Assembly (NCBI GenBank): GCA_947364595.1
Contig: CANATJ010000005.1
Coordinates: forward strand, 1 to 39,771
Source of the DNA: an uncultured Bacillota bacterium
Lineage (GTDB): Bacteria; Bacillota_I; Bacilli_A; RF39; UBA660
Direction: 5' to 3'
DNA: 39,771 nt
Shown here: one piece after another, positions 13,824 to 19,184 of the stretch
Numbering within the stretch: position 1 is the first letter of the stretch
How the letters are laid out: every line of letters begins with the position of its first letter
Notes under the pieces: model-generated
The model's input: the letters and a program-made list of their open reading frames with translations, nothing else
Told to the model about the DNA's origin: nothing
The model's database searches: none
Position numbers and translations under genes: made by a program

Positions 13824-14090
13824 ATGTATAGTATTGATCAAATTTTATTAGCTGCAAGCATGTTAGGGATTAAATTTGATAAATTCACTTTAGATGATTT
13901 AATAACAGGAATTAATATTGAATTAGAGCATGGTTTAGTAAGTCCAGCAACAAATGTAACCAACGATAACTTAATATTAACCATGAAAATAGCTTTAGCA
14001 CATTTAAATGAATTTCCAGATTATTATAATAAAGAATATGGATTACCAGCATTAGAAGAACAATTAAAAAGAATAAATAAAAAATCTTAA
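13824..14090 (+). CDS. DUF5661 family small protein
   Basis: An 88-residue soluble protein of unknown function. The segment GINIELEHGLVSPATNVT, followed by KIALAHLNEFPDYY, matches the DUF5661 pattern (ELEHG...TDD...KIALAHL.E.PDYY) as I remember it. The conserved His and acidic residues suggest metal binding, but this is inference. A GGAGG site precedes the ATG. Its TAA overlaps the TAA of the convergent nuclease gene by two bases, with no clear terminator between them. Confidence 0.75.
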   Translation: MYSIDQILLAASMLGIKFDKFTLDDLITGINIELEHGLVSPATNVTNDNLILTMKIALAHLNEFPDYYNKEYGLPALEEQLKRINKKS

Positions 14091-15952
14091 ATTTTAGACT
14101 TTAAAACAATTCCTTTGTTTCTTAATAACCGAACCCTATTTTGCACACCCATAATAGTTCTATTCAAATAAGCTGCTATATCAGCAGTTTTTTTAATCAT
14201 ATAAAATTTAATTAAGTAATCATCTTCTTCTTTATCCCATCGCCCCTTTATCTTATGACATCCTAATCTATTAGCCCTATGTGTAATAGAAGAAAATGTC
14301 CTATCTAATTCATTTGCTATCCAAAGTGGGCCCTTTTCCTTGTAGTATTTAATAACAAAAGCATCTTCTTTTTTATTCCAATGATTACTACGATATATAC
14401 CTAAACAATTTGCCTTTTGTCTACATGATTCCTTAGTTCTATGCAAATGATTTGCTACCCATATACTACCTTTTTTCGGGTAGTGTTTTTTTAAAAATAA
14501 TTCATCTTCTTCAGTCCATTTATTTACATAAAAAGTAAGATTAGATTTACTTGCATACTTTCTGTTTCTAGAAAAATTAATATAATAATCTTTTAATTTT
14601 TTATCATTCAAAGTATCATAATATTCAAAAAAAGAAAGCCAAGGGTTATACCGCTCAGTATAATTATCAAAATTATTTAAAAAATCTAAAACAAGTTCTT
14701 CAATATTTTCTTGTGAATATTTTATTCTAAGAAGTGGAATAGCATATTTTTTACAAAAATTATTTTTAATCTGATCATGCCTTTGAGTTCTATGTAAAAC
14801 CTCTATAGAAGAAATCTTACTATCACCATATAAAGATGATGCAAAAAAATGTTGCGATCCATCAAATTCTATTAAACCAATCAAATTATTCATTTGTATA
14901 TCTTCATAAATTGCAAAATCAAAATAAAGCATCTTCTTATCGACACATTTTTCAAAACCAACTTCCTGTTTATAAATAACTTTGTTTTCATCCAAAATAG
15001 ATTTAATTTTTAAAACATAAGAACTATATTTTTTAGTATAAGAAATTTTTAATCTATTAGCTAATCTAGTACAAGCATCCATATCTTTATTAGGAATTAA
15101 TTCAGCAACATATTTTCCAATAAGCGGATAATATTTTTTTAAAATAATAATATCTTCTTTACACCATAAATTTTCATTAATATACTTTATTCCATTTTTT
15201 CTTGCATAATTTCTACAAGTCACATGAGATCTATTTAAATGTTTTGAAACCCATAAACCACCTTTAGTAGGATAATGTTTTTTCAAAAAATTCTTTTCCT
15301 CTTTAGTCCATAATTTAGGACGTTTAAGTTTAAGAATAGCAGCTTTACTTTTAATCGCTGTTTCTGTTCGATTTAAAGCCTTAGCTACATATTCAATTCC
15401 TTCTTTCGGATAATGTTTTTTAATAAACTTAATTTCATCTTCAGTCCATAAACTAGTGTTATTATATTTAACTCCTAAAACAAATGCTCTTGTAAGACAA
15501 GTTTCTTTATTTCTACCAAGAATTTCACTAACTTTTTTTCCTCCATATTTTGGATAATACTTTCTAATAACATCATCATCTGATTGCTTCCATCTATAGC
15601 TTCTTTTAAGATTTAAAAAACCAGCCCTATGAATACAAGCCTTTTTTGTCCTATTTAATTTTTGGCAGCACCATAAGGCTCCATTATCTGGATAATATTT
15701 TTTTAGAAAATTATCTTCTTTAATAGTCCAATTTTTATATTTTATAGGTACTTTTTTTGATATCTCACCATTTTTAAGTCTAATATGATATAATCTGCCA
15801 CGACAAGCATTAGGCGTTCGGTTTAATATTTTAGCTATATCTTCATATTTTAATTTATTATAACAATTTATTAAAATTTTATCTTCTTTTAAAGTCCAAT
15901 TTTTGTCTGCATTTATACTTTTCTTAATCGTTTTTCTTTTATAATTTCCCAT
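14087..15952 (-). CDS. nuclease core flanked by nine SANT/Myb-like DNA-binding repeats
   Basis: No named family recognised end to end. Nine repeats of 46-48 residues start at Trp 19, 75, 121, 169, 215, 263, 479, 525 and 572. The pattern is W-(T/N)-x-E-(E/D) ... K-x-YP..G ... V-A-x-x-L-N-R-T ... A-C-x-x-R-A-x-x-L-G-I, which reads as a three-helix SANT/Myb-type unit. Between repeats 6 and 7, residues about 314-428 resemble a Vsr/EDxHD homing-endonuclease fold: Glu330, Asp345 in YFDFAIYED, LIEFDGSQHF (Glu362, His368), then RHDQIKNNFCKKY (His392, Asp393) and IPLLRI. Phage and mobile homing-type nucleases with repeated DNA-binding modules are a known theme. The six-core-three layout and full-length frame suggest an intact site-specific nuclease. 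Activity is inference. Confidence 0.7.
   Translation of the reverse strand: MGNYKRKTIKKSINADKNWTLKEDKILINCYNKLKYEDIAKILNRTPNACRGRLYHIRLKNGEISKKVPIKYKNWTIKEDNFLKKYYPDNGALWCCQKLNRTKKACIHRAGFLNLKRSYRWKQSDDDVIRKYYPKYGGKKVSEILGRNKETCLTRAFVLGVKYNNTSLWTEDEIKFIKKHYPKEGIEYVAKALNRTETAIKSKAAILKLKRPKLWTKEEKNFLKKHYPTKGGLWVSKHLNRSHVTCRNYARKNGIKYINENLWCKEDIIILKKYYPLIGKYVAELIPNKDMDACTRLANRLKISYTKKYSSYVLKIKSILDENKVIYKQEVGFEKCVDKKMLYFDFAIYEDIQMNNLIGLIEFDGSQHFFASSLYGDSKISSIEVLHRTQRHDQIKNNFCKKYAIPLLRIKYSQENIEELVLDFLNNFDNYTERYNPWLSFFEYYDTLNDKKLKDYYINFSRNRKYASKSNLTFYVNKWTEEDELFLKKHYPKKGSIWVANHLHRTKESCRQKANCLGIYRSNHWNKKEDAFVIKYYKEKGPLWIANELDRTFSSITHRANRLGCHKIKGRWDKEEDDYLIKFYMIKKTADIAAYLNRTIMGVQNRVRLLRNKGIVLKSKI
14108..14521 (-). 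repeat. three C-terminal SANT/Myb-like repeats (coding)
   Basis: Protein repeats 7-9, beginning KWTEEDELFLKKHYPKKG, HWNKKEDAFVIKYYKEKG and RWDKEEDDYLIKFY. They sit after the nuclease core and a linker of about 48 residues. Confidence 0.75.
15017..15901 (-). repeat. six N-terminal SANT/Myb-like repeats (coding)
   Basis: Protein repeats 1-6 of the nuclease gene, each about 46-48 codons (repeat 1 about 56 with its linker). They differ most in the third helix after the R-T motif: NACRGR, KACIHR, ETCLTR, TAIKSK, VTCRNY and DACTRL. This is the pattern expected if each unit contacts different bases. Confidence 0.75.
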
Positions 15953-15988
15953 ACTAATACTCCAATTAATATTTTACATTAAAATATG

Positions 15989-16012
15989 AAAAAGAACACT
16001 ATAAAGTGTTCT
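15989..16012 (-). terminator. intrinsic terminator of the UDG gene
   Basis: On the minus strand, AGAACACT/AGTGTTCT with a 4-base loop runs into TTTTT. It lies 106 bases after the UDG stop and before the nuclease gene. The 165-base gap 15953-16117 holds no other clear feature. Confidence 0.8.
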
Positions 16013-16117: not shown

Positions 16118-16996
16118 CTACATATCTTTTAATTTTTCGAAAATTGGAACATTACCTTTATAACTTTTTGGAGATATTGGACTTGGATGATAAATAGGCA
16201 ATATTTTATATCCGTTTACTTCATATATGTTACCAACAACATCTGAAAATTTATCAAATTTAAAATTAAGTAAATTTCTAGTTGGAAATTCTCCTAAGGT
16301 AATAATTAATTTAGGATCTAATATCTTTAATTGCTCTAACATTATATTTTTACAATTGCTAGAACAAATTTTTAAGTTTTTTCTTTCAAGTGGATAACAC
16401 TTAACTGATTCTAAAAAGGTTGTTTTAAAAATATCTTTATCAATAATATCAAACAACTTTTGTAATACAACCCCGCTCGGTAATACTTTGCCATTTGTAT
16501 CACACCATAATTTATGACTTTTTCTCCATCCATTATTAGCAGGAGCTTCTCCAACTAAAACTATATCATTATTTTTTCCTAAAAATACTGTTGCATCATT
16601 TGGAAATTTATCTACTAATTTATTACAAGAGTTACAAGAATATACTTTTTCATCAACTTGTTTTAATAACATCTTTATTAATCTTAATTTTAATGCGCTA
16701 TATCTATTGGCTGTATCATCAGTTAATATATTTTCTCTATCGATGATTTGGTAATTCTTATATTCTATTTTGTAATCAAATTGATTTGAAGTTAAATCTA
16801 TAATCTTATTTTCTACCATATTAAAGTAATGACTAATTTCATCAATATAAATCAGACAAATATCTCCACCAAAATAATCATTAATAATTAGAGATATTAT
16901 TGCAGACATGCCAAAACATTGACCTTGAACTTTAGGATAACATAAATCTTTTGAATAACAATTTAATAATAATCTTTGAATATTTTCTATATTCAC
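16118..16996 (-). CDS. YunG-like domain fused to a family-4-type uracil-DNA glycosylase
   Basis: The C-terminal part (about 115-292) is a UDG-superfamily domain: VGEAPANNGWRKS (149-153 core), LESVKCYPLERK, LIITLGEFPTRNLL and the late HPSPISPKSYKGN loop. Cysteines 121, 124, 200 and 211 or 215 are placed to hold a 4Fe-4S cluster, as in family 4. Such enzymes excise uracil from DNA. Residues about 1-110 resemble the YunG family: GQCFGMSAIISLIINDYFGG, ISHYFNMV, KIIDLTSNQF, and the helix RYSALKLRL. The start is GTG at 16996, with GATGGGGTG just upstream. Partial homologues of both parts exist separately; what the fusion does is unknown. Confidence 0.8.
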   Translation of the reverse strand: MNIENIQRLLLNCYSKDLCYPKVQGQCFGMSAIISLIINDYFGGDICLIYIDEISHYFNMVENKIIDLTSNQFDYKIEYKNYQIIDRENILTDDTANRYSALKLRLIKMLLKQVDEKVYSCNSCNKLVDKFPNDATVFLGKNNDIVLVGEAPANNGWRKSHKLWCDTNGKVLPSGVVLQKLFDIIDKDIFKTTFLESVKCYPLERKNLKICSSNCKNIMLEQLKILDPKLIITLGEFPTRNLLNFKFDKFSDVVGNIYEVNGYKILPIYHPSPISPKSYKGNVPIFEKLKDM

Positions 16997-17313: not shown

Positions 17314-18099
17314 CTACTTTATTTGTTCTTCCTCAGTAATAGTTTTATTTTTTATATGATATTCTATTTTGTTTTCTTTACAAAAATCTATAACTTTATA
17401 AGCTAAATCGTTATAATATTTTTTATAATCTTTATATTCAGAAACTTTTTTATTATAGTGTAGCCTTCCAAATATAATTTTATCAGCAAAAGAAACAGCT
17501 TCTAAAATTTCATTAAAATCTTGTTCTATAAAATTTGGAGTTGGATAGGGTTCAATACTTACCCATGTTTTACAGCCCTTATCATGTAAATATTTTAAAC
17601 TTTTAATTCTATCCATATATGGTGCTGATCCTGGTTCCATTTTTTTTCTAAATTCTTCATTCAACGAAATTAAAGTTATCCCATAACTATTATCTTTGCT
17701 TAAATTAGCCAATTCTTTTGGTAAAACTCCTTTAGTTAAAGCTGTACATGGAATATTATAACTATTTACTAATTTTAATATTTCTATAGATAAATTACAA
17801 ATATCATCATATTTATACATAAAAGGGTCAGTAGTGAAACATAGATGAACACTTTTAATTTTATGCTTTAATTTCGGTAATTCTTTTGTTAATAATTCAA
17901 CAGCATTATTAACAATAATTGGATTAATCCAATTATTATAATTTTTCACTTTACCAAAACGACGTGCCATCATAAAAGCATAGCAAGGATACATACATCC
18001 ATGTGAACATCCTTGCACATGATTAATTGTATAATCACCATATTCTACTCCTGTTTTATATAAAAGAGATTTCCTACTCAATGATTCATTGCAATTCAT
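17314..18099 (-). CDS. radical-SAM-like three-Cys protein, partner of TcmP
   Basis: A 261-residue protein with an N-terminal cluster motif, GCSHGCMYPCYAFMMARRFG. Cys31, Cys35 and Cys39 are spaced C-x3-C-x3-C, not the standard C-x3-C-x2-C. The rest resembles SplB-like radical-SAM barrels: VHLCFTTDPFMYKY, TALTKGVLPKEL, YGITLISLNEEFRKKMEPG and TWVSIEPYPTPNFIE. This family is known to sit beside the three-Cys-motif partner TcmP, found 30 bases upstream here, and both occur in phage and mobile contexts. AGAGGAGG precedes the start. It stops at TAG, but the frame stays open for 25 more codons (see findings). Substrate unknown. Confidence 0.8.
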   Translation of the reverse strand: MNCNESLSRKSLLYKTGVEYGDYTINHVQGCSHGCMYPCYAFMMARRFGKVKNYNNWINPIIVNNAVELLTKELPKLKHKIKSVHLCFTTDPFMYKYDDICNLSIEILKLVNSYNIPCTALTKGVLPKELANLSKDNSYGITLISLNEEFRKKMEPGSAPYMDRIKSLKYLHDKGCKTWVSIEPYPTPNFIEQDFNEILEAVSFADKIIFGRLHYNKKVSEYKDYKKYYNDLAYKVIDFCKENKIEYHIKNKTITEEEQIK

Positions 18100-18129: not shown

Positions 18130-18951
18130 TTATACCATACTTTTATCTTTTAATATATACCTTTCTACTCTTTTTACTAATGCCCATGTTTTTGGGTTAT
18201 CATTGCTAATTAATAAAAGCAATAAAAACAAAGGAGAATTTCTACTATTTTTCAATACTAAATAATTTTCTGAAACATATGGAAAAATTTCTTTCATTTT
18301 TTTATATATAAACTGTTGAACATCTCTTGGTGATACTTTTTCAAATTCAGTACAATCAAATATATTTAATTGAGTATTTTCAAAATATAATTTTTCTTCC
18401 CATGAATCGTCACCTAAACATCTATTCAATACATTTTTCCAATCACCACTAATATTTTTATCTTTTTTTAGCATCCTATTTATTGCATGAAATGGAAATA
18501 AATACCAAACATCAAATGCTTTAGTACAAGAAATTTTCTCTAATGTATTAAAATCCAATTGTGTTGCATAAGGATCAATAAAAAGAACACCTCTACTAAA
18601 TTGCCAATTAATTTTACTAATTATTTTGGGTAGGGCAACATTGCAATCTTCATTATAAATGTGAATATTTAATTCAGGATAACAATCAACAATTTTTTTT
18701 AATTGTTGAAAATTCTTTTTGTTTTTTTCTATAAAATGATATTCATCAAATTTGTTTTCTAAATTAAGGGCCATAATTGTTGAACCATTTATTTTTGATG
18801 AATCTGAAAATTCTATTTCCCCACTTCCTGCAAAGCAATCAATATATATTTTTTTAAATTTCCTATTTTTTAATGCAGTCATATAAAAATTTAAATAATC
18901 TTCAAGTACATTTAATTTTTGCTTGGTCCACTCTCCACCAAATTTATTCAT
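18130..18951 (-). CDS. tcmP: three-Cys-motif partner protein TcmP
   Basis: A 273-residue protein with a Rossmann methyltransferase-like core: IYIDCFAGSGEIEF (about 35-48) resembles a SAM-binding loop, YHFIEKNKKNF fits the acidic end of strand 2, and LFIDPYATQLDF (123-134) sits where DNA or RNA methyltransferases carry an Asp-Pro-Pro-Tyr type motif. The opening GGEWTKQKLNVLEDYLNFY is characteristic of TcmP. Members pair with a three-Cys radical-SAM-like protein, which follows here. No biochemical role is established to my knowledge. AAAAGGAGG precedes the ATG. The leader carries a terminator-like hairpin. Confidence 0.85.
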   Translation of the reverse strand: MNKFGGEWTKQKLNVLEDYLNFYMTALKNRKFKKIYIDCFAGSGEIEFSDSSKINGSTIMALNLENKFDEYHFIEKNKKNFQQLKKIVDCYPELNIHIYNEDCNVALPKIISKINWQFSRGVLFIDPYATQLDFNTLEKISCTKAFDVWYLFPFHAINRMLKKDKNISGDWKNVLNRCLGDDSWEEKLYFENTQLNIFDCTEFEKVSPRDVQQFIYKKMKEIFPYVSENYLVLKNSRNSPLFLLLLLISNDNPKTWALVKRVERYILKDKSMV

Positions 18952-19107: not shown

Positions 19108-19184
19108 TGGGGCGCTGTGTGGGGATCGAACCCACGCGTGTCGGAACCACAATCCGATGTGTTAACCACTTCACCAACAACGCC
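19108..19184 (-). tRNA. tRNA-His (GTG anticodon)
   Basis: Cloverleaf read on the minus strand: acceptor GCGTTGT pairs with ACAGCGC, anticodon arm TCGGA-TTGTGGT-TCCGA with anticodon GTG, T arm GTGGG-TTCGATC-CCCAC, and encoded CCA. An extra 5' G (G-1) faces C73, the identity element specific to tRNA-His. The minus-strand accessory block begins immediately downstream of its 3' end, a common integration position. Confidence 0.97.

Follow-up and report, generated by a model that had tools for sequence, protein, structure and literature searches.

Nine Myb repeats around a predicted Vsr-fold core: a probable homing endonuclease of the phage VSR group in an uncultured Bacillota bacterium

The question raised by this locus is what a bacterial protein does with nine Myb-like units placed around a nuclease-like core, and to which group of enzymes it belongs. 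The DNA analysed here, called the window, is a stretch of 39,771 nucleotides from an uncultured Bacillota bacterium whose assembly has 1.04 Mb and is 89% complete. A first-pass annotation had proposed a gene at positions 14087-15952, leaving its strand unstated. The gene was found on the minus strand, where the interval is an intact ORF of 621 aa with an ATG start; the plus strand of the same interval contains many stops. At 25% GC the chance probability of an open run of 621 codons is ~1e-25 and, together with the ATG and the GGAG in front of it, this confirmed the intact frame that had been reported. The features are collected in Table 1.

Table 1. Features of the nuclease gene and its island in the window, and nuclease-free Myb-array runs in genomes of the same family (positions preceded by a locus name).
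Feature	Position	Strand	Basis or remark
Complete gene, Myb x6 - nuclease core - Myb x3, 621 aa	14087..15952	(-)	
GGAG ribosome-binding-like site, 7 nt 5' of ATG	15960..15963	(-)	sequence
Myb repeat R1, aa 18-63	15764..15901	(-)	
Myb repeat R2, aa 74-119	15596..15733	(-)	
Myb repeat R3, aa 120-165	15458..15595	(-)	
Myb repeat R4, aa 168-213	15314..15451	(-)	model helices 171-184, 186-192, 197-206
Myb repeat R5, aa 214-259	15176..15313	(-)	
Myb repeat R6, aa 262-307	15032..15169	(-)	most divergent
Predicted Vsr/PD-(D/E)XK-type nuclease core, aa 311-430	14663..15022	(-)	AlphaFold2, Foldseek, phrog_559
Presumed active-site stretch FDF...IEFDGSQH (D345, E362, D364, Q367, H368)	14849..14920	(-)	conservation; catalytic role inferred
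D393 to K396 (DQIK), long core helix	14765..14776	(-)	both invariant, 72 sequences
Linker, core to C-terminal repeats, aa 431-477	14522..14662	(-)	
Myb repeat R7, aa 478-523	14384..14521	(-)	assigned by sequence
Myb repeat R8, aa 524-569	14246..14383	(-)	assigned by sequence
Myb repeat R9, aa 571-616	14105..14242	(-)	assigned by sequence
Terminator-like hairpin + T-run, between upstream UDG gene and nuclease gene	15993..16012	(-)	
YunG + family-4-like uracil-DNA glycosylase (UDG) fusion	16118..16996	(-)	
Radical SAM protein, DUF5131 related	17314..18099	(-)	PADLOC candidate PDC-M41B, weak
TcmP, three-Cys-motif partner	18130..18951	(-)	NCBIfam 3.8e-57; PADLOC PDC-M41A 3.2e-81
tRNA-His, conserved anchor of variable island	19108..19183	(-)	
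Nuclease-free Myb-array run, genome G174	L211:4209-10263		
Nuclease-free Myb-array run, genome G616	L212:2244-8371		
Nuclease-free Myb-array run, genome G564	L213:3058-8296		
Nuclease-free Myb-array run, genome G554	L214:4141-8225		
Nuclease-free Myb-array run, genome G459	L215:3657-8703		

The nine repeats begin at residues 18, 74, 120, 168, 214, 262 and 478, 524, 571, which gives six N-terminal and three C-terminal units and agrees with the split around a central segment described previously. They are spaced by 46-48 residues, the length attributed to the units before, with the exception of the step from R1 to R2 (56). Only the Trp and the second Tyr are present in all nine repeats; the Pro occurs in 6/9 and the Gly in 7/9, and LNRT is exact in 4/9 with its Arg present in 8/9. 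Apart from the Trp and this Tyr, the positions of YP..G, LNRT and R-A-x-x-L that had been called invariant are therefore common and not invariant. The most divergent unit is R6, in which a degenerate LIPNKD takes the place of LNRT, and the identity between repeat pairs ranges from 17 to 50%. The Pfam profile Myb_DNA-binding (PF00249) matched with 50.4 bits against a gathering score of 24.4 (E 2.4e-13), and phrog_323 ('transcriptional regulator, D5-like') matched the repeats with 1.6e-50. Judged by these profiles, the similarity of the repeats to Myb is not due to chance.

The structural model of R1-R6 is formed by helical units (pLDDT 84.5), the mutual arrangement of the repeats not being predicted (pTM 0.43). 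By DSSP, helices were present in all six, with three clear helices in R1 and R4 and helices 1 and 2 merged elsewhere. The best solved match was c-Myb R1R2R3 on DNA (1h88, prob 1.00), in keeping with the SANT/Myb-like nature proposed for the repeats. The net charge of the two Myb arrays was +46 and +16, and that of the core was -3. The most variable positions within the repeat were 19, 31 and 39, then 35, 30 and 8. Positions of helix 3, which the first-pass annotation had considered hypervariable, are among the most variable ones, but the variability is not confined to this helix; because positions 8, 19, 20, 24 and 25, located outside it, vary about as much, hypervariability of the recognition helix is only mildly supported.

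The core contains the motifs FDFAIYED (previously read as YFDFAIYED), IEFDGSQHF and RHDQIKNNFC, as had been pointed out. In the alignment of 72 core sequences, residues D345, E362, G365, H368, D393 and K396 were invariant, and D364 and Q367 were conserved in at least 90%. The candidates for an E, D, H, D series are E362, D364, H368 and D393, all of them conserved, a tentative correspondence proposed by conservation. The AlphaFold2 model obtained with the same alignment (pLDDT 87.4, pTM 0.81) has the order H-E-E-E-H-E-H, that is, a helix, three strands, a long helix, a strand and a helix. Foldseek against solved structures placed the Vsr-DNA structure 1cw0 first (prob 0.99, TM 0.57), followed by TnsA and then by free Vsr (1vsr), every E-value being >0.001; GTPases and kinases were also listed, with low probabilities. 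Against predicted viral structures there were 88 matches with E <= 0.001, among them DUF2726 proteins, treble-clef proteins and entries named 'Group I intron-associated VSR homing endonuclease'. The core also matched phrog_559 (3e-20) and, slightly below the cut-off, Pfam DUF2726 (4.1e-5).

The protein had no Pfam Vsr match, and the search of PDB sequences with the 72-sequence core profile gave no nuclease match with E up to 10, the I-Bth0305I domain being among the unmatched. Against a single, approximate Vsr sequence, the profile produced a weak alignment near the first Asp (P 0.04). The active site of Vsr pairs D51 and H69 (PMC11879112), residues to which D345 and H368 probably correspond, judging by their place in the sequence. 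That the core is a Vsr-fold nuclease domain with a conserved putative active site is supported by the modelling. Of the Vsr/EDxHD core proposed earlier, the Vsr fold was thus upheld by AlphaFold2 and Foldseek, whereas strict membership of the I-Bth0305I type of EDxHD enzymes is not established, the sequence profile having found no match among solved EDxHD enzymes. Neither a non-nuclease fold in the core nor repeats devoid of helices, the two outcomes that had been named as contrary to the proposal, was encountered.

By sequence, the core belongs to the 'VSR' group of homing nucleases from phages (phrog_559, DUF2726), which are often encoded in group I introns. Its identity to the cores of phage and plasmid homing nucleases was 34-45%, with 45% for that of AR9. 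The AR9 relative is annotated as 'group I intron VSR' and is found inside the RNA polymerase gene, the Sepunavirus and Streptococcus relatives are situated between pieces of terminase genes, and further relatives in phage records are free-standing. PHROG 559 has been described as VSR-type and intron-encoded in terminase genes of Bastillevirinae (PMC11878797). Homologues of the core were collected as at least 155 different ORFs from a few genomes and two scans of viral contigs, for which the best 80 loci each of up to 600 candidates were taken, so that rarer builds may be missed. Among the 155 homologues listed, the core was at the C-terminus in 152 and was preceded by zinc-type cysteine motifs in 141. 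Since zinc modules and a C-terminal core are both absent, the protein departs from the usual build of the phrog_559 / DUF2726 group and is to be regarded as a variant, not as a typical member. In the same list, Myb units accompany the core only in this protein and in L247, a phage protein; when more such proteins were sought in Bacillota genomes and viral contigs, only L247 came near among the matches listed.

In the tree of the core, the protein had a long branch among phage enzymes of the zinc-finger kind; support ranged from 92/81 to 94/93, with no fully supported group. This position is compatible with the idea that Myb repeats took the place of zinc modules, without proving it. The core is found overwhelmingly in phage contigs and is present in 5 of the 395 genomes of the class, and none of 58 relatives, 35 of which belong to the same genus, had a match to the gene. 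The occurrence of both gene and core is sporadic and mobile-looking.

By comparison with the phage VSR nucleases (AR9 gp146, EFP01 and the Sepunavirus terminase enzymes), the protein has the same core, predicted fold and invariant residues. In those enzymes the core is C-terminal and is preceded by treble-clef zinc modules, and some of them are located in introns, whereas here the zinc module is absent, the core is central with Myb arrays on both sides and there is no intron. L247 resembles the protein in having the same core (4e-29) and at least one Myb unit, but that clear unit (perhaps two) is only N-terminal, the zinc modules are kept and the core is C-terminal. I-Bth0305I also joins a Vsr-like core to extended DNA-binding modules (PMC3943268, PMC11879112); it forms a dimer on its target, which is nearly 60 bp long (PMC3943268). 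The profile of the core, however, matched no solved homing nuclease. The mismatch-repair endonuclease Vsr provides the best solved fold matches of the core (1cw0, 1vsr), but it has no Myb arrays and the protein lacks the Pfam Vsr match. In phage proteins with Myb and LAGLIDADG domains (phrog_4645; L225, L237) tandem Myb repeats likewise seem to aim a homing-type nuclease, although the catalytic fold is unrelated and the two to four repeats are only N-terminal. In the R2 retrotransposon protein, zinc-finger and Myb motifs direct a restriction-like endonuclease to one site. R2 is an animal element with a reverse transcriptase, and the likeness would be an analogy of working only.

Myb arrays were also found joined to other catalytic domains: to LAGLIDADG in L225, L237, L223 and L229 (Pfam to 8e-14), to HNH in L244 (phrog_374, 9e-61), and to other endonuclease-like domains in L243, L003 and L228 (by PHROG or by eye). 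PHROG 4645 ('endonuclease') covers most of the length of the Myb-LAGLIDADG proteins. Considering that Myb arrays occur on several nuclease folds, the window is not the only place where homing-type nucleases make use of them, and they are apparently a recurrent aiming module of phage nucleases without a name; no open-licence paper that we found describes homing nucleases aimed by Myb arrays. The opinion that the architecture is no named family is to be qualified: unions of Myb repeats and nucleases recur in phages, and L247 combines Myb, zinc fingers and the core itself.

Some individual arrangements deserve mention. In viral L243:7495-8979 an endonuclease-like middle domain is followed by three C-terminal Myb repeats, a further instance of Myb units placed behind the catalytic domain. 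The Haloarcula protein L002:7998-9119 has about five Myb repeats and a putative C-terminal PD-(D/E)XK-like domain (by eye, with a weak MmcB-like match). In the Bacilli genome G094, L216:3897-5645 encodes what appears to be an SF2-type helicase that ends in about four Myb repeats (by eye).

The nuclease gene is the last of an island that runs from tRNA-His through TcmP, the radical SAM protein and the UDG fusion. The region has 7 terminator-like sites against a mean of 0.9 in shuffles, and the hairpin before the nuclease gene suggests that it is transcribed separately from the UDG gene. The island genes have in common a low GC at codon positions 1 and 2. There is no intron in the window, where Rfam found only a tRNA. 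Two of these neighbours, TcmP and, weakly, the radical SAM protein, correspond to the PADLOC candidate defence system PDC-M41. The tRNA-His next to the CotJB gene (L042-L056) is the anchor of a genus-wide variable slot whose genes differ by species; in congeners the slot contains, as read from their sequences, apparent DNA methyltransferases, a serine recombinase and Nudix genes. A UDG fusion 72% identical to that of the window adjoins tRNA-His in congener G011 (L047:5915-6805), which does not have this nuclease there.

Taking this setting into account, the protein could be a host defence nuclease of the tRNA-His island, whose Myb arrays would recognise a conserved phage sequence so that invaders are cut. 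We consider this unlikely, even with TcmP, the radical SAM protein (PDC-M41) and the UDG fusion as neighbours and with apparent methyltransferases, a recombinase and other variable genes in the slot of relatives. The nuclease protein itself matched no PADLOC model, the matches being those of its neighbours; a terminator-like site lies between the gene and these neighbours; G011 keeps UDG at the slot without the nuclease; and so long a reader would fit one rare site better than a broad defence.

In genomes of the same family, two or three long proteins with Myb arrays but no nuclease were observed in a run. These proteins have about 330-790 aa and up to nine or more detected units. In G174 the run is downstream of pheST, and a small sigma factor of the sigma-70 type comes after it. 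In the genome of the window no match to such a run was found. The run has the appearance of a regulatory operon, as yet undescribed. In a dead core, loss of the invariant residues would be expected, and here every one of them is kept on a confidently modelled nuclease fold, which argues against a domesticated or cleavage-dead DNA-binding regulator like the nuclease-free Myb-array proteins of related genomes and phages; we find this quite improbable, even though the family has such proteins beside a sigma factor and phrog_323, a 'transcriptional regulator', spans the repeats. Least probable of all is a gene left over from, or carried as cargo by, a prophage or other element now in decay, its original role (e.g. 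phage-phage competition) lost, which would agree with a core overwhelmingly from phage contigs and with the shared low GC of the island, but none of the genes noticed in the window was a phage structural gene, no attachment repeat was found when the tRNA-His end was sought, and the frame is intact.

We regard it as probable that the protein is a free-standing homing endonuclease, or a derivative of one, of the phage VSR (Vsr-fold, DUF2726-type) group. DNA cutting, the target site, gene homing and the bases read by each unit are what we infer for it. The usual N-terminal zinc-finger array would have been swapped for Myb/SANT repeats, six before the core and three after it. Both basic arrays would run along the DNA with the third helix of each unit in the major groove, and jointly they would pick out a long site that is probably bipartite. 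This site would be cut by the slightly acidic core, placed between the arrays, via D345, E362 and D364/H368 with metal ions, and repair of the break templated by the chromosome that carries the gene would copy the gene into the cut allele.

In favour of homing are, by sequence, the phage relatives of the core in an intron and between terminase pieces and the phrog_559 match, together with the predicted Vsr fold, the viral structure matches named VSR homing endonuclease, the sporadic occurrence of gene and core, the c-Myb-like array, the basic character of the arrays and the Myb arrays on other phage homing nucleases. Against it are the candidate defence neighbours in a variable, defence-like slot, the lack of an intron, the Foldseek E-values for the core, the profile without match to a solved nuclease and the low pTM of the array. 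No empty insertion site was found either, the flanking genes having been located in 44 congeners; since the genes around the locus are ordered differently in the relatives, a homing insertion is undemonstrated. It is possible, and proposed here tentatively, that the two Myb arrays (6 + 3 units) clamp the DNA on a bipartite target of ~25-35 bp read unit by unit via helix 3, and that Myb arrays are an unrecognised module exchanged among nuclease folds in phages and bacteria.

The anatomy of a nuclease with a tandem DNA reader, with which the first-pass annotation began, is well supported by the Vsr-fold core, its phage homing relatives and the Myb units. The protein would then represent a known kind of selfish nuclease in a new build, with nine Myb units that flank the core instead of the usual zinc array of the phage relatives. 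If it cuts as proposed, it would be a natural long-site nuclease directed by a repeat array and, if this is true, a test case for additive DNA reading by prokaryotic Myb repeats. Domain libraries mostly tag Myb arrays as transcription regulators only, and their presence on LAGLIDADG, HNH, Vsr-like and other nucleases points to a general aiming module. It is suggested that homing nucleases may exchange entire aiming modules, a zinc array for a Myb array.
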